A program made the position numbers and the translations under genes. The notes below the pieces were generated by a model. It was not told the origin of the DNA. It did no database searches and worked only from the letters and a program-made list of their open reading frames with translations. Positions 7,669 through 33,391 of a stretch of DNA of 64,000 nucleotides are shown piece after piece. How positions within the stretch are numbered: position 1 is the stretch's first letter; every line of letters begins with the position of its first letter. Source of the DNA: Allacma fusca (taxonomy: Eukaryota > Arthropoda > Collembola > Symphypleona > Sminthuridae); contig OX359247.1 in the NCBI GenBank assembly GCA_947179485.1, positions 41,702,801 to 41,766,800 on the forward strand, given 5' to 3'.

Positions 7669-8175
7669 CAGTGTTTGACCACAGAACCAGCGAAAGTGGA
7701 TGCTATTATGAGCCAACCCAAACCCAATAATGTGGATACTCTTAGAACATTTTTGGGAATTATAGGTTACTATCGAAGATTTATTTGGGACTTTGCCCAA
7801 ATTGCAGCTCCATTGCAGAGCTTACTCAAAAAACATTCTTTGTGTTATTGGTCCAAAGATTGTGATGAGTCTTTTGAACAACTCAAACAGGTTGTATGTA
7901 AAGCGCCTGTACTGAGACATTATGATGAGAATTTACCCTGTATGCTATATACGGATGCGAGTAAACTTGCCATTGCAGGGATACTACATCAAAAGTTTGG
8001 GGATGGTGAGCATCGTGTTTATTATGTATCGCGTGCACTCACTCCAACTGAGAAATATTGGAGCGTCACTAAAAAAGAGTGTCTTGAAGTTGTATTTTCA
8101 GTAACGAAATTACGTGAATTGTTATTTCTTAAACGTTTCACCATAGTTACTGACCATATTCCCTTTGCTTTTTGA
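7669..8175 (+). pseudogene. gypsy RT-connection and RNase H
   Basis: One frame encodes the end of RT (TEPAKVDAIMSQPKP, FLGIIGYYRRFIWDFAQIA). RNase H follows, with LYTDASKLAIAGILHQK, VYYVSRALTPTEKYW, ECLEVVFSVTKLRELL and FTIVTDHIPFAF, then a stop. The catalytic Asp of YTDAS is kept. This region would degrade the RNA strand during reverse transcription. The frame stops at 8173 where an intact element would continue to integrase. Confidence 0.85.
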
Positions 8176-24524: not shown

Positions 24525-25761
24525 ATTATGGGTCAATGCAAAGTAATGTACAGTAGCGACCCCTACTTTACTTGTGATTTTAGTGAGAATTCTTGCCTGT
24601 CTAAATTTGCACTCGACTCAAAGCCAGGGGTGAAATATCGGAAAAATAAAAATTACAATTAAAATACCTGCTTTAATTTAATTTCGATTTAGATTCCGAT
24701 TCTGATGTATCCAAATAATTAATTTTGAATTCCGATACCAATTAATTCAAATACTTTTAAATAATTCAGATTCCAATTCCGATTCTATGCATGTAACTTA
24801 TAATCCAAAGATGCTAGCATATCCTACTTGTAGGCCTATTTATAGGGTGCTAGCTATTTTCTGAAAAAATTGTAGGCAAAATAGGGTGCACTGATTTTCG
24901 CAGAAAAATGCCTATAAAATAGGAAATGCACGCCTGAATACAAGCGGTCATATAGGCATACATGTAGGCAGCACGAGAACACGCTTGTATGAAGGGAAAT
25001 ATGTAGGATGTACATATATATGTACATACAAAACATTATGTAGGGTGAAGGATTCTACCACAAAATATTTTTATTTATAATTTAAACTATAGATCAGTGC
25101 ATCGCATGGGTACAAAAATGCTGTACCTGGACCTGAACCAGGACCCAAATAGTGGGTACCGGCAAAAATCGTACCCAAACCCGTACCTGAATAAAAGTAC
25201 CCATTAAATAAATGTTGGTACCTGGACCTGATTATTTTTCAAGTAGTGCGTACCTGTACCTGAATTTTACCCGTACCCAAAATATACTCAATATATGGAC
25301 CTGTACCTGAAACATTTTCTTACGTACCTGTACCCAATCAGGTACTTTAAAAATGATTACTGTAAATGATTCAACATGATGACATTCGATGGTTTACGTC
25401 ACAGCAGTTACAAGCTAGACAAAATTCTGCCTCGTCATAATTTTTGCAATACTAGAGATGTTAATGGAAGTATAACTTCAATATCATCTGAGGTATTGCC
25501 ATGTGCAATTAAATCTTCCACTTCTTGGTCATCCTCCATAACCACAATATAACTTAACACCATTTTTACTGAATCACACGTGGAATTTGTAATTACACGA
25601 ACTTATTGCTGGCACACAAGCAAGTCAACAATCTCTATTGCACAAACGTATGCTTTTTTCAAAAATTGCGATGAAATCCTGAAAACACGCTGAATATCAA
25701 AACAAACCTGTAGGTCGGAGAGAGAGCCACATACTACACTAGATGCCTCGTAAGATGTATT

Positions 25762-26347
25762 GGGTCATTTCATGCCATTCCTGTAAGGTAAAAATGGTCA
25801 AAATTTTGATTTGCCTAATTCTTCAAAAACATGAAGCAGAGCATGTGCGTAGGAGGGACTGTGGGGGTGGTAGAGGCTTGTAACCAGCGGATCCCCGATA
25901 ACGGGTAAAAACGGGTAATTTCACGGAATCTAAAATATTTTTGTCCCTAGCAGTCCGATCCGGACCATTCTTTCGCTGAAATGACTGGAAATAAGTGGTG
26001 AACACAACGGTTTTTCAGAATTTCGAATTTCGAAAAACTAAGCTCAAAATTTTGAAAAAACCGGTTTTTGCTGCAAGTCCCGAACAAATCAACCGATTTT
26101 GACGATTCCGGTGCCAAACTGCAAGTTTTGCAGTGTAAAACACGTGTTTCCAAAATTATGAATTTCGAAAAAAAAACAAAATTTTGAAAAACTGGTTTTC
26201 GCCATAGTTATGACACTAGTAAACAGATTTTGATAATTCCAGTGCCAGACATAATGTTTCGCATTGTTGAACACAACGTTTGCCCAAATTTTTGAATTTC
26301 GAAAAAAATCAAAATTTTGAAATATTTGATTTTGTCGTATTCATGAA
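25762..26347 (+). repeat. Left terminal inverted repeat arm (586 bp)
   Basis: Starts GGGTCATTTCATGCC and ends ...GTCGTATTCATGAA; beyond it the two arms diverge abruptly. It contains several AAAATTTTGA-type palindromic blocks and a GC-rich block (AACGGGTAAAAACGGGTAA). Frames in it read identically in both arms only because the arms are copies; they are not genes. Confidence 0.9.
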
Positions 26348-26639
26348 ACTCGTGAAGTGACTTAGATAATGCGAACCCTAAAATTAGTTAGGACGTCAAA
26401 GGAACGAAATGATTTATGCACATATGTATAATTTTTAAAACACAAATCATATGCAGTTATAATAAAACGAGCGCTTTGTTTAAAATTCTGTCAATACATT
26501 TATTATATTTGTAATAATTTAAACATGTACATATGGTATATGCTGGAAGTGCTTGACGAACAACCCCACTCTATCGAACTATGTGTAATTGAATTTTCAA
26601 TATTTTGACAGACATAACAACTGGAACGTTACCAATGCA

Positions 26640-29279
26640 TTAACTTATATGATTAGCCAGAATCTCACTAATTCGATTAAATTCTGGTAATCCTAACTTG
26701 TACATTCTTCCTGGCGTAGACGTTACATCGGGAGCTTCAACTGGTCCTAGAAGGTGATATAGCTCCATGGAGTCTATTTTCGGAACTCTGGGCCAAGAAA
26801 AGCTGTTGCGGGATCCGCTGCGTTGCATAAAGTTAATGTCAACACTCTGCCCATCCAAATTTAACCCATGAACAATTCCAAGCTGGAACTTTCTGTTAAC
26901 CTCAACTGCGACATATGATCCATGTGCTGGAATCAGCGGCCTAGCAACTTCCTCCTCGAACAACGAAAATACCTCAGACCTCTCGGACGACGAAAAAACT
27001 CGAACCTCTACCTGTGAACCAGAGATTGGTTTGAAAGCGTGGCATCGTTGTATGCCACAAATTCGACTTGCCTCGCCATATCTATTTTCCAGTCTTTCAA
27101 CCATTGCCTGAACCTCAGCATTTGTGACTAAAAGGATCTCCATTGTTGGAGAATCACACCATTTTCTTTGACAAAAATCTACCATTTCATGTGCTTCGCG
27201 TAAGAAATTACCCGGTTGAAGACTACAAACGGGTAGCACGCTTCACTACCGCCGCGATACCATCGCACTGCGATTTGCCATGAGCGGTCGCAGTATTGTG
27301 CCACTCAGCGGATAATCCAAAATCCCCCTGGAATTTTACGAGGTTACCGATATTCTTAAAGTTTTTGTATTGTGCGGCGCTGCCGTCAGATACAAAGTAT
27401 ACGTGTGTTATCATTGGAAAGTCTCGTTTAATTAATGGCACAACTTTGGTCAAAAAAGCAAAAAAGGCAGTAGAGTTATGTACTAGGTCGTCGCTGATGA
27501 GTGTAGGACTTATACAACATTTTTTCTTCCACTTTATTATAATAATAAACACAAAATGGGTGAACAGTGCATTGACGGGGAGAAAAATGTGTACTTTGTA
27601 TGTCTCTGTGGCTTGTAAAAGCATAGTTCATCCCAAAGTCCACCTGGCATATAATGCTCTCCTCCGTCTCTATTCGAATGTACAAATCTTTCAGAAACTT
27701 AGACTGCTTGTTGTTAACGAAATGATGAAATCCAATTTTTGGAATCATAGCGTCAAATCTATCAATGAAATCTACTTGGCTTTCGCGGATTTCCTTCAAA
27801 TGTGCACGATCAGTGCTTTCCCACAGATGAAAAATGACGTCCTCGTCAATGTTTGTGCGGATATACTGATGTAGAGAATCATATTTAGGGCATTCTGAGC
27901 AGAATCCCAGATAACATTCGTCCGTTGAGGGATTGCAAAAATAAGTCTCCAGAAATGTCTTTGTGCCTTGTGAATATCCTATCACATCACACAGGATTTT
28001 AAAATTCTCGTGAATAACACAAACACAAGTGGTGTGATGCCCACGTATTCCTGGCCACACGCACTCTCGTGGTCGTAGTAGTGAAAACTTCGTAATACCA
28101 AGTTTGACTTGCGGATGTAAGTTACAGAATTCGCGATACAGCTCCTCTAATTTCATCAGAATCCATCTTTGTGCTACACGTTCTTTAACACCATAGTCCT
28201 GTAGAACCTGCACAGTTCGCCGTGCTTCCGGTAGAACTCGACTGTTCGTATCATCCATTAAAAACCAATAACAAGATTTCGGGTTCCGGAATCTAGTGGA
28301 CGTCCAGCATCTTTTGGTGGTGGAGCAACAAATGGGCCGAATCTAGTTTTAAGTTTCGATGCCTCGCGTGCTTCATATGTGGTACATTTAAAATGCAAAA
28401 TAACATCAGCAATGGTCATGTCTGGAGGTGAACAGGTCAGATTAAGATATGTTTCTCTTCGTGTTGTTAATTCTTTGAACCGCTCAGGTAGCACCGATTT
28501 AAGACGGCTGCACCAACTACACTTAGTTCTCGGTGAAAGTGGAAATTTATTTCTGGTTACACGCTCTACTTTCCTTTTCAGTGCATCTGTTGCCTTGACA
28601 ATCTTTCTCCCGAGAGCACCTCGACTAGCTACATGGTGACGTTTAAGCGGAGTCTCACCAAGCGACCTCAGGCTTGCGTTTAAATCGTCTAATTCGTATT
28701 CTGAAGGAATCGACGATACAGTTGCTGTAACAGATTCTTCTTCGTCATCAAAATCGACAAGGGTAGGTATGGGATCCGGTAAAGTGGGACATGTAAATTT
28801 TGGAACTCTTTGCCATGAGCTGCAGCCGGGAGTAGGTTCTGGACACTTTGGATTAATGACGTCTTGTATTTCTGTTTTCGGCACCCTGTGAATTGATGAG
28901 GTTGGCGTATATGTGGAGGTGGGAAGTGGTCTTGGTGCTATAATATTTATAATACTTGGCATTTCATGTGGCTGCGCTTCGACATGCTGCGGTGATGACG
29001 TTGCTGTTGGCGAACCTGCCAAGTTAACATCGGGTTGTTGTGGTGACAACACCTCCAGGATATTCGGTTGCGGCTCTGCCTGTCAGGCACCCGTTGAAAT
29101 AGCCTCGTGCATCTCTCTCCAACAGCTGATGCACAACACAGTTGACCCACTTGAAGAGCCATTCCAGTGTGATCCTGTGCGTTCTGTTGCAAGGATTCTG
29201 TTATGATATTTGTAGCTTGTCGTTTTGAGTGTCCTGAGTAATTCTTAGGATTGCAGCAAATGAACTTACGTTTCCCCAT
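26640..29279 (-). pseudogene. DDE-like transposase gene of the long-TIR element, three frame breaks
   Basis: Pieces in order: MGKRKFICCNPKNYSGHSKR start (29279); a Pro/Ser-rich linker; CSWCSRLKSVLPERFKEL; then DAGRPLDSGTRNLVIGF ending 28261; a conserved block from MDDTNSRVLP (28258) through FSLLRPRECVWPG and HHTTCVCVIHENFKILCD; CQVDFGMNYAF; FVSDGSAAQYKNFKN; AEWHNTATAHGKSQCDG; and a C-terminal piece 26640-27239. VDF-, SDG- and AEW- are good candidates for the DDE/D catalytic acids. The family (SDG..QYKN...AEWxFFATSHGKxPCDGIGG) is common in arthropods and cnidarians, from memory, and its superfamily is uncertain to me. Frames change at 28258 (one base short in a T5 run), near 27495 and near 27237. 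A probable 71-bp intron (29150-29080, GTGGGT...ACAG, phase 0) joins the first two frames. AATAAA lies on the minus strand at 26504-26499. Confidence 0.75.
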
Positions 29280-29809
29280 TTTACAAAAGGTTCGAAAAAC
29301 TAGTTCACAGAAGGAAAAGTTAGAAGTAACGTAAAATTAAACAAACTCGAAGCGTGTGTTAGAACTAACTGGGACGTTCCTTACAGAGGCAACACAAGAT
29401 TTGGTACTGAGTTTCCTGTATACAGTGACAATTCACGAAGTAGAGCTTAACAGCGCCAAAATAATTTCATCGGGGGCAGCTCCTTTCTATTCTGAAAGTG
29501 CTCAAGACTAATGATTACATTATTCCAGTATTCCTGAGTGAGTCACAACTGATGTCTACGAAAAGTTCTTTCGAACAGTAAACAAGAATAGACAAGAAAG
29601 CTCGGATGACCTGGAATACATTTCTAAAATAAATATTTTTTATGCATGAGTAATTACCGATGCAGTAGTTTGCGCAGTACATATCCCGTAGTATGTAAGT
29701 TCATGTGGGTGCGTTTACTATAAATGTGGACTGTGATATCACAAAATCGCCAGTTCCGCTTTTTCAGACCAAGTCGTGTGCAACTAACTTAGACTAATAA
29801 TTTTTAACA
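29280..29809. promoter_or_regulatory. Divergent promoter region between transposase and membrane gene A
   Basis: This 530-bp spacer separates the minus-strand transposase start (29279) from the plus-strand ATG at 29810. For the plus gene, TATAAAT is at 29719-29725 and an initiator-like CAGTT has its A at 29752, about 33 bases downstream. I saw no equally clear TATA box on the minus strand. Confidence 0.55.
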
Positions 29810-30402
29810 ATGCTATCAACTTTGCTGTTGTTAGGGCTTCTGAAATTAACGTTAGCAAACATGTACGTTGACTACGTGGATATTCCAGTAACCGCAGATA
29901 TCAGTCGTGTTAGCACCGAGAGTTCAATTGTTCGATTTTACGACGAGGCAGTTACGGATGCAAACAAGGTCGTTAATTTCGCTGTTGCTACTGAACAAAA
30001 AACTTTAAAAACTTCGAAAAAGTCGGCGAAGTCGCAGAAAAAGTAAGTGATGCAGTTGAATCGCTCCGGATACCTTGTTGAAGACATACGAGTTTGTTGT
30101 GTGAGTACCAATACGCAATCGTTTTTAGCATTTTAAATGTATTATTTCATGAATTAATTGTATAACATTTTTAGTCGGTGGGCTAAAGCTGGAATTATTG
30201 TCGTGGTCATTATTGCTCTGCTCGGTATCTTGTGTGTACTTGGCAAGTACTTCTCGTTTGTGAAAACGTGAGTCAAGTATTCTTAAACATCTGAATTCAT
30301 ATTTACACTACTTTCTCTTATGTCTATAATGAGGTAACATTTTTTTCGTATTCCAGCATATTCCGATCCCGTCATCAACCTCATACCTCTCAAGTTGTAT
30401 GA
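29810..30402 (+). CDS. Membrane mini-protein A (signal peptide, one TM), three exons
   Basis: Exons 29810-30042, 30175-30267 and 30357-30402; introns GTAAGT...TTTTTAG and GTGAGT...TTCCAG, both phase 2. The 123-residue product starts MLSTLLLLGLLKLTLA, a classic cleavable signal. About 60 residues of ectodomain are followed by a Lys/Ser-rich juxtamembrane stretch (KTLKTSKKSAKSQK) and a TM helix (AGIIVVVIIALLGILCVLG). The tail is KYFSFVKT to ...PHTSQVV. Topology should be type I (N outside). It is a paralogue of gene B: exon 2 is exactly 93 nt in both, with matching ends (YFSFVK/YFNFVK) and C termini (QVV/AVV). It has its own TATA box. I do not recognise a known family. Function could be host-membrane related, or an accessory of the element; this is not known. 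Confidence 0.75.
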
Positions 30403-30457
30403 CTCAGTGGGTACATGGGTGGTCGAAGTTATTATTAAGTGCTACCCTTTTCGTGAA

Positions 30458-30493
30458 TATAAAAGACTGCGCTGCGGTGTGTTTTTTCAGTTG
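30458..30493 (+). promoter_or_regulatory. Core promoter of membrane mini-gene B
   Basis: TATAAAAG at 30458-30465 followed by a TCAGTTG arthropod-type initiator with its A at 30489, 31 bases from the first T of the TATA box. Translation starts at 30545. It lies only 56 bases past the stop of gene A, so B has its own transcription start rather than being read through. Confidence 0.65.
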
Positions 30494-30544
30494 TATTGTT
30501 CGACCTTGTAGTTGTATTTTTTATTACTTTCTCATTCGGGCAGA

Positions 30545-30948
30545 ATGAAGTTGTGTAAATTTATAATTTTTTCTGCATTTGTAAACATTTGCTGGGCATT
30601 TGACTGGCCTGACGTAACAGTTAAATTGGAGGATTTGATAACATTCCCAATGTAAGTATCTAACTGAAGTAACTATTCACAAAACAATTTTTGCAGCATG
30701 TGTAATAAATATTTAACTTGTTTCAGACGGGCTGTGGAATTTTTCGTTGCGGCAGTACTGTTAATTCTTGTCATTTTAATTTTCAGGAAATTAAAACAGT
30801 ATTTCAATTTCGTGAAGCAGTAAGTGTAATTTCGTTAGTTGTAAATTCGTAGTTTGTACTGAAGTAGTTTCGGCGCAATACCGAATAAGTACTGAAACTA
30901 TTATTCTGAAATTGTAGGCATAGTAATACCCAGCCTGCAGTAGTGTGA
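30545..30948 (+). CDS. Membrane mini-protein B (signal peptide, one TM), three exons
   Basis: Exons 30545-30651, 30727-30819 and 30918-30948; introns GTAAGT...TTTCAG and GTAAGT...TTGTAG, both phase 2, at the same places as in gene A. The 76-residue product has a signal peptide (MKLCKFIIFSAFVNICWA). The ectodomain is only about 18 residues (FDWPDVTVKLEDLITFPI), followed by a TM helix (AAVLLILVILIF). A basic stop-transfer RKLK, then QYFNFVKQ and a tail ending QPAVV complete it. AATAAA is at 31157-31162. It is a tandem duplicate of gene A that has kept the TM/tail exons and lost most of the ectodomain. Family unknown. A hydrophobic C-terminal VV in both could be a PDZ-type ligand or an ER-exit signal; this is inference. 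Confidence 0.75.
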
Positions 30949-31515
30949 TTTCTGTTGTCCTGGAATTTATTGACCACTCCTGGCAATCACATGTGGACGA
31001 AATAATTTTTGTTGACCAAGAATTAGTTATGTTTTGACTCTGTTTACATTACTTGTTTGCGCTCTTTTTAAATATTGCCAAATTATCTGACTTTATTGAT
31101 GTCTCTATTCGTGTATGTAAAAAAATATGCGGTTTATACTAAGATACATTGCTGAGAATAAATTCTTCATCTGAAAGGCTAATGCTTTCACTGTTGTACA
31201 TTTCTGAGTTTGTTTAGGCCTAATGTCTTGTCGTTGACCATGTACGTATTCATATTTGTCCATTTTCAAACACAAATTGTTAATGTGCAATAAGCCATGA
31301 AATACATTTGCGAAATCATACCTTCCTACATTACAATTATGGTAGTTTACGTTTCCACATTCAAGCCCGTCAAAATCAGAGTTGTGCTGTTCCTGTTTAT
31401 GTTTTTGAAAATTGTAATATATTTTGTGCAGATATTCACATTTTTGAAAATATGTTGTGTTCTACAATGCAAACCTTTATTTTAGAGTTGGTATAATCCA
31501 AGTCACTTTATTATA
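30949..31515. other. 3' flank of gene B inside the transposon
   Basis: Contains the AATAAA of gene B and AT-rich DNA up to the right arm. Short frames at 31105-31496 lack support. Confidence 0.4.
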
Positions 31516-32102
31516 TTCATGAATACGACAAAATCAAATTTTTCAAAATTTTGATTTTTTTTCGAAATTCAAAAATTTGGGCAAACGTTGTGTTCAACAA
31601 TGCGAAACATTATGTTTGGCACTGGAATTATCAAAATCTGTTTACTAGTGTCATAACTATGGCGAAAACCAGTTTTTCAAAATTTTGTTTTTTTTTCGAA
31701 ATTCATAATTTTGGAAACACGTGTTTTACACTGCAAAACTTGCAGTTTGGCACCGGAATCGTCAAAATCGGTTGATTTGTTCGGGACTTGCAGCAAAAAC
31801 CGGTTTTTTCAAAATTTTGAGCTTAGTTTTTCGAAATTCGAAATTCTGAAAAACCGTTGTGTTCACCACTTATTTCCAGTCATTTCAGCGAAAGAATGGT
31901 CCGGATCGGACTGCTAGGGACAAAAATATTTTAGATTCCGTGAAATTACCCGTTTTTACCCGTTATCGGGGATCCGCTGGTTACAAGCCTCTACCACCCC
32001 CACAGTCCCTCCTACGCACATGCTCTGCTTCACGTTTTTGAAGAATTAGGCAAATCAAAATTTTGACCATTTTTACCTTACAGGAATGGCATGAAATGAC
32101 CC
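31516..32102 (-). repeat. Right terminal inverted repeat arm (587 bp)
   Basis: Inverted copy of 25762-26347. Differences seen: AT versus GT in the AAAAAC[A/G]TGAAGC block, GCCA[G/A]ACA, one extra A in a poly-A run, and GAA[T/A]ATTT near the inner edge. Ends GGCATGAAATGACCC at 32102. Confidence 0.9.
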
Positions 32103-33391
32103 TTTACTGATTGTAAAAGTACCCACATTTGCAGGTATTAGTTTGTCAGGTCCAGGAATATTGAAAGTTTGTACCTGTTCCTGTCAGGTACAACCCAAAA
32201 AATTCCAAGTTTGTACCTGTACCCAACACCTGGTTTTGTACCCAAAATTTGGGTACATATAGCTGGTACCCATAAAGTACCCATTCAGTTTGGGTACTTA
32301 AACAGAGTACCCATTTTGGACCTGGACCTGTACCTGTACCCAAATACTCAGGTACTACCCGTACCCATGCGATGCACTACTATAGATTACTAATGTTACA
32401 TTATTGATTATGGAAGTTTTCTCTCAATGCGAACCAAAACGATTTTCAAGTGTTGGAAGATCAGGCTACTGCAGGAACGTCTGAGATTTCCCATTCAAAA
32501 TAATATGCATACAGAACTAAGAACATCTACATATGTGTATTGTATGTGATTGCTCGATCGCTCATACTTACTGTAACGTGCAATACGAGTTTTCACATAA
32601 TGCATGAGTAACATTAATTTTGTAGAAGTAGATACACAGAATCAGTTTGTTTAAAAATGTGACTACACAATAGCAAAGCAGGTAGTATGAAACAATTGCT
32701 TTAGTTTAGCATCTTTGTTATAATCTATTGTTATTTTTGTCATTTTTAAGTCATTCGACCACATCATTTAAACTGTTTGTTTACTCGAACAAACAACATG
32801 TTTTGCAGGGATTACTCCGGAAGCTGACCTAGGTTATAGTGTTAAATTAAACTTAATGCAGAGAAAAGTCTTCCCGCATTAACCTAAGTCTCTGGAATGC
32901 TCAAGATTATTGATGTTACTTGCTGGAGAGTTTCACAAAATTCTGAATCATTCCACCACTTGAACAAATTAAATCATTTGTCCTTTGTGTGGTCCATAGT
33001 TGTTCCACAGAATACGTTGGAACATCTTTCATTTTTTTTGTATTTCTAAATTTTGATTATATTGGTAGGAATTACGAACACATGATTCCGCCTTTCTTTT
33101 CATTTTTATTACTACGATAAAGAACTGTTTGCGCAAAAAAGAAGTGTAAAGTGTACAAGGTAGAAGTACTATAAAAGGTCGTAAAGGGATCTTTATGGCT
33201 GTCTACTGCAATATCAGAAATGGAATCGGAATTCATTGGAATATCATTAAATTCTAATACCAATACCGATACTTACTTTCTAATTCTGATTAGAATTCCA
33301 ATACCTAATTTTACAGTATTTTTAATTCCGATTCTAATGAAATTTTCGGATTCTTTTTCGATTCCGATTCCAATTCCGATTTTCAACCCTA

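Follow-up and report, generated by a model that had tools for sequence, protein, structure and literature searches.

A transposon with two membrane-protein genes

We analyzed 64,000 nucleotides of the springtail Allacma fusca (assembly GCA_947179485.1, contig OX359247.1, positions 41,702,801 to 41,766,800 of the forward strand), hereafter the window, in whose coordinates positions are given unless another locus is named. Positions 25762-32102 (6341 bp) are a single copy of a DDE-type DNA transposon, in which a transposase gene faces away from two genes for small membrane proteins, A and B. The left terminal inverted repeat (TIR; 25762-26347, plus strand, 586 bp) begins with GGGTCATTTCATGCC and contains internal sub-repeats of ~134 bp; the right TIR (31516-32102, minus strand) has 587 bp. 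An earlier note on this DNA had counted about four differences between these arms, and their alignment over 586 columns showed 3 substitutions, one internal gap of one base, and one end gap. No other inverted pair in the region comes near them in length (571 bp ungapped versus 102 bp for the runner-up).

The transposase gene (26655-29279) lies on the minus strand, opposite A and B as had been noted, and it is broken, which the earlier note did not mention. Relative to the 896-codon frame of a related element (L028), it consists of five pieces (29279-29142, 28926-28261, 28264-27503, 27501-27226, and 27224-26655) separated by four frame changes. Judged from these pieces, the window copy is inactivated and not autonomous, unless some of the indels are assembly errors, as they might be. 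A structure model of a relative's transposase predicts an RNase H-like DDE/D core with three conserved acidic residues. We also asked whether A and B had been kept intact while the transposase decayed, and rejected this as not significant by our own estimate (four frame changes in ~2.6 kb versus none in ~0.6 kb).

Genes A (123 amino acids [aa]) and B (76 aa) are on the plus strand and have three exons each, open throughout. A TATAAA box (29719-29724) lies 91 bp upstream of the start codon of A, exon 1 (29810-30042) encodes a signal-peptide-like start and an ectodomain, exon 2 (30175-30267, 93 bp) a membrane span and a basic juxtamembrane stretch, and exon 3 (30357-30402) a short tail with a final valine, followed by the stop codon. 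Gene B has a TATAAA box (30458-30463) 87 bp upstream of its start codon, a first exon (30545-30651) for a signal-peptide-like start and a short ectodomain, a second exon (30727-30819, again 93 bp) for a membrane span and a basic stretch (FRKLKQYFNFVK), and a third exon (30918-30948) for a short tail, final valine, and stop; an AATAAA polyadenylation-type signal follows downstream (31157-31162). Hydropathy, on which alone the term "signal-peptide-like" is based here, indicated that each protein has a hydrophobic stretch at the N terminus and a single strong span close to the C terminus. The earlier description of two intact three-exon genes with such a start and one span was therefore accurate. 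We picked the splice sites by hand, and public gene models concur where they exist: 67 aa of B are identical to a public A. fusca protein, and public A. fusca proteins derived from the A and B of another copy are spliced with the same choices.

Genes A and B occupy the same place in diverged copies

The earlier note had proposed, as a test, to look for both genes at the same place in other copies. We searched the genome (392.7 Mb, 91 contigs) with the transposase and obtained at least 92 matches, 91 of 118 candidates being scored. Twelve of the loci that we read belong to the lineage of the window, as judged by a transposase identity of at least 39% or by matching arms and interior, with smaller fragments left out. 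Nine of the 12 carry A and/or B at the same place. Both genes are present, in the same order and orientation, in the window and at L028, L036, L037, and L039, and both persist down to 41% transposase identity. L042 and L056 retain a remnant of A only, and L031 and L041 a remnant of B only. Neither gene was found at the other three loci: L008 has a clean internal gap across the A/B place and has lost part of its transposase, L035 is truncated (the first 305 transposase residues are gone) and shows no A or B within 7.6 kb upstream, and L040 shows neither within the 3.7 kb read, 0.9 kb adjoining the transposase being outside that stretch. Five more loci (L011, L012, L029, L033, and L034) match the arms and nothing of the interior of the element.

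The copies at L037 and L039 are on different contigs, and both carry A and B; across 2642 bp their identity is 99.1%, with 17 mismatches. Their sequences differ past the arm end, as at different insertion sites; therefore, the element moved with the A/B pair aboard. In these comparisons the module sits inside the arms and moves with the element, in agreement with the proposal that the pair is a cargo or helper module belonging to it.

The genome-wide tally of module genes was based on B and E (see below) as queries. The B search yielded seven matches from six candidates, all scored. All five B loci with an E value of ≤1e-3 (window, L036, L041, L028, and L031) are in elements of the family, each less than 8 kb from an oppositely oriented transposase match, and all five were already known from the reading of loci; distances were measured to 62 transposase loci merged from the 92 match rows. 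The sixth locus (E value, 0.38) has no transposase nearby. The sensitivity of this search was limited, as it missed B at L037 and L039 (35% identical).

The predicted protein design is kept while the sequences diverge

Relative to the window proteins, identity is 59% (L028), 58% (L036), and 35% (L037) for B and 35%, 22%, and 18%, respectively, for A. Among the B genes of the window, L028, and L036, nonsynonymous divergence (dN; NG86 method) is 0.32 to 0.52 and synonymous divergence (dS) is saturated; the YN00 dN/dS ratio of the L028-L036 pair is 0.42. The third codon position is the most variable in all 12 A-A and B-B pairs. Exon 2 measures 93 bp in seven of eight A/B genes and 90 bp in the A gene of L037, whose exon 3 is short or absent. 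Exon 3 of the L036 B gene is out of frame with the other exons by our own reading, whereas the public model P0122 reads on. A C-terminal valine, an endoplasmic reticulum (ER)-export signal of type I proteins, ends three of four B and two of four A proteins. Taken together, the sequences show the inferred design (hydrophobic start, one span, and splice pattern) persisting as the DNA diverges. Of the A, B, and E genes, most have their own TATA-type box.

With the three E proteins described below, 11 module proteins could be compared. The N-terminal hydrophobic stretch passes the hydropathy threshold in nine of them. All 11 have a positive predicted net charge after the span (+3/+4 in the four B, +1 to +4 in the four A, and +1/+2 in the three E proteins), and in nine of them this charge is higher than the one before it, which would favor an orientation with the N terminus outside and the C terminus inside.

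A and B are probably an old duplicate pair: comparison of their profiles gave a probability score of 90.6 (E value, 1.3e-6), a similarity that membrane spans inflate, and exon-2 identity beats shuffled sequences in several A-B pairs, not in all. A GltP row for the A protein of L028 (0.0046) was under the curated cut-off and was set aside as chance.

An unrelated membrane protein fills the same slot in a sister lineage

A sister lineage has 31 to 35% transposase identity. At L038, L043, and L044, the same divergent slot is occupied by a gene of two exons whose product is a membrane protein of 170 to 255 aa, here called E. These genes lie within arms of 797 bp (L038; 92.3% identical), 1058 bp (L043; 98.5%), and 908 bp (L044; 99.1%). 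Second copies exist of two of them, L053 being 99.67% identical to L044 and L054 99.9% identical to L043 over the 1801 bp compared, a stretch that excludes the outer ends, so that segmental duplication is possible. In both pairs, the part of the transposase covered by the search is uninterrupted, with frames of 764 and 795 aa.

A genome search with the E protein of L038 (E38) gave 17 matches at 13 loci, 11 of them with an E value of ≤1e-3. Eight of these 11 have a transposase match within 8 kb, always in divergent orientation; 0.25% of the genome lies that close to such a match. Five of the eight were among the loci read earlier, and of six new E loci, three adjoin a transposase. At L047 to L052, six loci of the sister lineage, there was no E in the 3 kb read; the E search then located an E gene at L052, 6.7 kb from the transposase. 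At L048, a frame of 64 aa (reverse complement, 2183-2374) that includes a strong membrane span lies opposite the transposase and matches neither A, B, nor E; it is possibly a third version of the module.

E is not detectably homologous to A (profile probability score, 1.2), and we do not rely on a single A-E tblastn match (E value, 0.003). Its ectodomain contains a basic site, RTER in E38, RQKK in E43, and RQSR in E44, followed by a conserved stretch like ILESxxGGDLxxFLxxIKGMFG. In all three proteins the most amphipathic stretch of the ectodomain begins at this site, a coincidence reached by 4 of 2000 shuffles for E38, which is clear, and by 230 and 376 of 2000 for E44 and E43; the comparison was limited to E. 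Domain rows for E38 (PT-VENN, E value 0.0023; Stevor, 0.02) were under the curated cut-off and were discarded as chance.

Judged from these loci, the normal gene set of the family is a transposase plus a divergent membrane-protein module, either A/B or, in the sister lineage, the unrelated E.

Ends, target sites, and arms

TIRs are present in the window copy and in its relatives and, together with target duplications, have the form expected of DDE/D transposons. Whole elements of the family measure 5.5 to 7.1 kb. Target duplications of 3 bp flank the elements at L036 (CGT) and L028 (AAT) and a fold-back derivative (fb12; TTA). The duplication around the window copy is imperfect (ATT/TTT), the L037 element has none, and the ends at L043 gave no clear reading. 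For two E elements, our reading of the ends allows a duplication of 4 bp (GTAT and TTTT).

The earlier note had called the window copy recently moved. The near identity of its arms fits this, yet arm identity is not a clean clock, because in L028 (2030-2579/7408-7947), the L036 element, and the window the outer arm is near-identical and the inner arm abruptly diverged, which hints that the outer part has been homogenized. The 15-mer at the terminus given in that note has seven exact genome matches, of which two are the window copy itself, three (L003, L004, and L007) are other copies or arm fragments, and two (L001 and L002) have no further likeness to the element.

Tandem sub-repeats of ~134 to 139 bp occur inside the arms of more than one family (window, 25996-26384 and, mirrored, 31479-31868; L044, ~1400-1944) and are possibly multiple transposase-binding units. 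Degenerate GTACCTGTACCC-type repeats adjoin both ends of the window copy on the outside (25122-25307 and 32157-32360). The L028 element is flanked on both sides by near-identical stretches of ~90 bp (~1900-2000 and 8010-8100), as if it lay inside a tandem repeat. Short arm-only derivatives, fold-back or like miniature inverted-repeat transposable elements, are found at L011 (5001-5581), L012 (4216-5015), and L034 (4203-4781), the first directly adjoining a ~165-bp satellite array. Three transposase fragments are clustered within 20 kb at C8:40226682-40246134.

The transposase family in other animals and its affinities

The transposase family also occurs in animal proteins named from a sponge, a hagfish, a spider, a sea spider, a beetle, and thrips; these are uncharacterized proteins, likened to ours from protein sequence alone. 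In two of them, P0020 (laminin-like, Brassicogethes) and P0047 ("ARL14 effector protein," Nymphon), the transposase is fused into a host gene model, probably by misannotation, and a further member labeled as bacterial is probably contamination. No viral or prokaryotic relative was confirmed among viral contigs or genome contigs, and BFVD gave no transposase match at an E value of ≤1e-3. Nothing informative was found in Pfam (five window frames, three transposases, three E, two A, and one B), in NCBIfam (two transposases, E44, B, and the A protein of L028), or among PDB sequences, searched with the transposase and E profiles. The domain rows CLZ and Gad1 for transposase P0080 (E value, 0.002) were again under the curated cut-off and rejected as chance.

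Three named superfamilies were compared with the family. Zator elements have 3-bp target duplications, like the lineage of the window, and the Pfam family PF07592. No match of the PF07592 type was found for transposases P0002, P0007, and P0080 at an E value of ≤5, the inclusion of PF07592 in our copy of Pfam being unconfirmed. Sola elements have 4-bp duplications, in contrast to the 3 bp of the A/B lineage, although two of our E elements possibly have 4 bp. Kolobok elements are likewise eukaryotic DDD/E transposons with sublineages that carry different second proteins, namely nucleases, a helicase, and KolX (PMC9587614); however, they duplicate TTAA (PMC9587614), and the duplications found here (CGT, AAT, and TTA) set our family apart from them. 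The word "membrane" is absent from the main text of that article (PMC9587614). We found no description of membrane-protein genes in TIR DNA transposons in the full-text literature, mostly outside subscription journals, which is weak evidence of absence. In sum, the element behaves as a TIR DNA transposon, and the membrane module is its new part.

Discussion

From its position in copy after copy, the membrane-protein module is almost certainly a standing part of the element. Two unrelated versions occupy the same slot in two lineages and appear constrained, which argues that the elements gain from acting at membranes, and we consider it probable that the module has a membrane-acting function that helps the element. 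Our proposal is that the transposase would cut and insert the element by a DDE mechanism, and that the module proteins, spanning the membrane once and bearing a basic juxtamembrane tail, would be routed into the secretory pathway and promote the spread of the element, most likely by remodeling or locally fusing cell membranes, for example, from soma to germ line. That the role is cell-to-cell passage or fusion specifically is a tentative suggestion, drawn by analogy.

The closest parallels are sORF2 of the mdg1-clade LTR retrotransposons and the reoviral FAST proteins. sORF2 is described as a small plasma-membrane protein proposed to fuse follicle cells locally with the oocyte, and, by the account of the study that proposed this, attempts at reporter assays in minimal systems had been unsuccessful (PMC11952523, a preprint); PMC13269885 gives context for this parallel. 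By prediction, our proteins (73 to 255 aa) resemble sORF2 and FAST in being small and single-pass with a basic juxtamembrane tail, in traveling with a transposable element that lacks a classical envelope, and in diverging fast (PMC11952523, PMC12945298). They differ in belonging to a DNA transposon in which no capsid was noticed, in being encoded by spliced genes mostly with their own TATA-type box, and in having signal-peptide-like starts and no myristoylation motif; for our proteins, fusion would be a role proposed by analogy (PMC11952523, PMC12945298). A second parallel is provided by nematode Mavericks, DNA elements with a membrane gene, a putative fusogen, that possibly aids their spread (PMC10680173). 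Mavericks are virus-like and have a polymerase and a capsid, whereas in our elements of 5.5 to 7.1 kb only a transposase and the membrane module were seen (PMC10680173). Because of these parallels we favor, with modest confidence, a helper that remodels membranes or aids cell passage over the blocking of host defense and over toxin-antidote retention.

Several observations weigh against this reading. The N-myristoylation motif MGxxxS/T, found in many FAST proteins though not all, is present in 0 of the 11 module proteins, FAST proteins do not typically have a signal peptide, E43 (255 aa) is above the usual FAST/sORF2 size, and no capsid gene was seen in the element. The charges leave the orientation unsettled, since the charge falls from +6 before the span to +4 after it in window A and is +1 on both sides in E43; the orientation therefore rests mainly on the signal-peptide-like start, and in the A and B proteins of L036 the N-terminal stretch is below the hydropathy threshold. 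Some dN/dS ratios are high (NG86, 0.8 for A of the window and L037 and 0.68 for A of L036 and L037; maximum likelihood, 2.0 for A of L028 and L037 and 1.1 for B of L036 and L037), although the ratios are unreliable because dS is saturated. The protein database holds no homologue of A or B outside A. fusca, so their conservation is seen within one genome only. For E, the structure model is poor (predicted local distance difference test score, 52), no E was seen at 5 of 11 loci of the sister lineage, and three good matches to E (C1:73284853, C8:16402166, and C1:40050436), like two weaker ones, have no transposase nearby among the matches listed. The three good ones are possibly decayed elements or domesticated genes; that at C1:40050436 has 70% identity and an open frame of 56 aa.

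The strongest competitor, which we regard as somewhat less probable than a cell-passage role, is that the module blocks host defense or silencing, or regulates whether a second copy can enter, acting from the ER or the plasma membrane. The secretory-type design and basic tails would suit this, as would the fast, arms-race-like divergence (18 to 35% identity for A and 35 to 59% for B in the other three families). However, the factors of the PIWI-interacting RNA pathway are mostly out of reach from the secretory lumen, and the scanned A, B, and E proteins show no known domain.

We find it improbable that A and B form a toxin-antidote-like pair, in which one protein harms cells that lose the element and its paralogue protects, holding the host to the element. 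Small membrane proteins do occur in such systems, and A and B look paralogous (the same 93-bp middle exon, the profile match, and exon-2 identity in several pairs), but the slot of the sister lineage shows one protein only, several decayed copies retain a remnant of just one gene, and multicopy insertions would blunt the killing of losers.

Still less credible is the idea that the element descends by reduction from a DNA virus or a Maverick-like element, with A, B, and E as leftover envelope-type genes. Class I viral fusion proteins have a furin-type cleavage site with a hydrophobic fusion peptide after it, and the basic site that starts the most amphipathic ectodomain stretch of E recalls such cleaved proteins, although its placement is clearly above shuffled sequences in E38 only; against this, no transposase relative turned up in viral contigs, nor in BFVD at an E value of ≤1e-3, no polymerase or capsid gene was noticed, and the elements are small. 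A one-off capture of two host genes, which the earlier note had entertained and which a host-like three-exon structure would fit, is contradicted by the recurrence of the genes at the same place in several diverged families and by the location of all five significant B loci of the 393-Mb genome inside elements, none at a host locus, and is very hard to credit. Equally remote is the idea that A, B, and E are conserved regulatory DNA rather than protein genes. Their short products would suit it, but the codon-position pattern, the splice pattern, and the span are kept through B protein identities of 35 to 59%, and public gene models concur.

The accessory proteins of eukaryotic DNA transposons, as presented in PMC9587614, act on DNA (nucleases and helicase) or have no known role, and a membrane module contrasts with them. 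A bolder possibility, which we hold to be unlikely as matters stand, is that an animal DNA transposon superfamily, unmatched here to a named one, ships its own membrane fusogens, small proteins of the secretory pathway through which the element itself, or else cells or vesicles with its transposase and DNA inside, would pass from soma to germ line or between hosts; if so, a plain cut-and-paste transposon would gain virus-like spread. If the role of the module is cell passage, it would offer a directly testable mechanism for a long-standing puzzle, the arrival of DNA transposons in the germ line and in new species.

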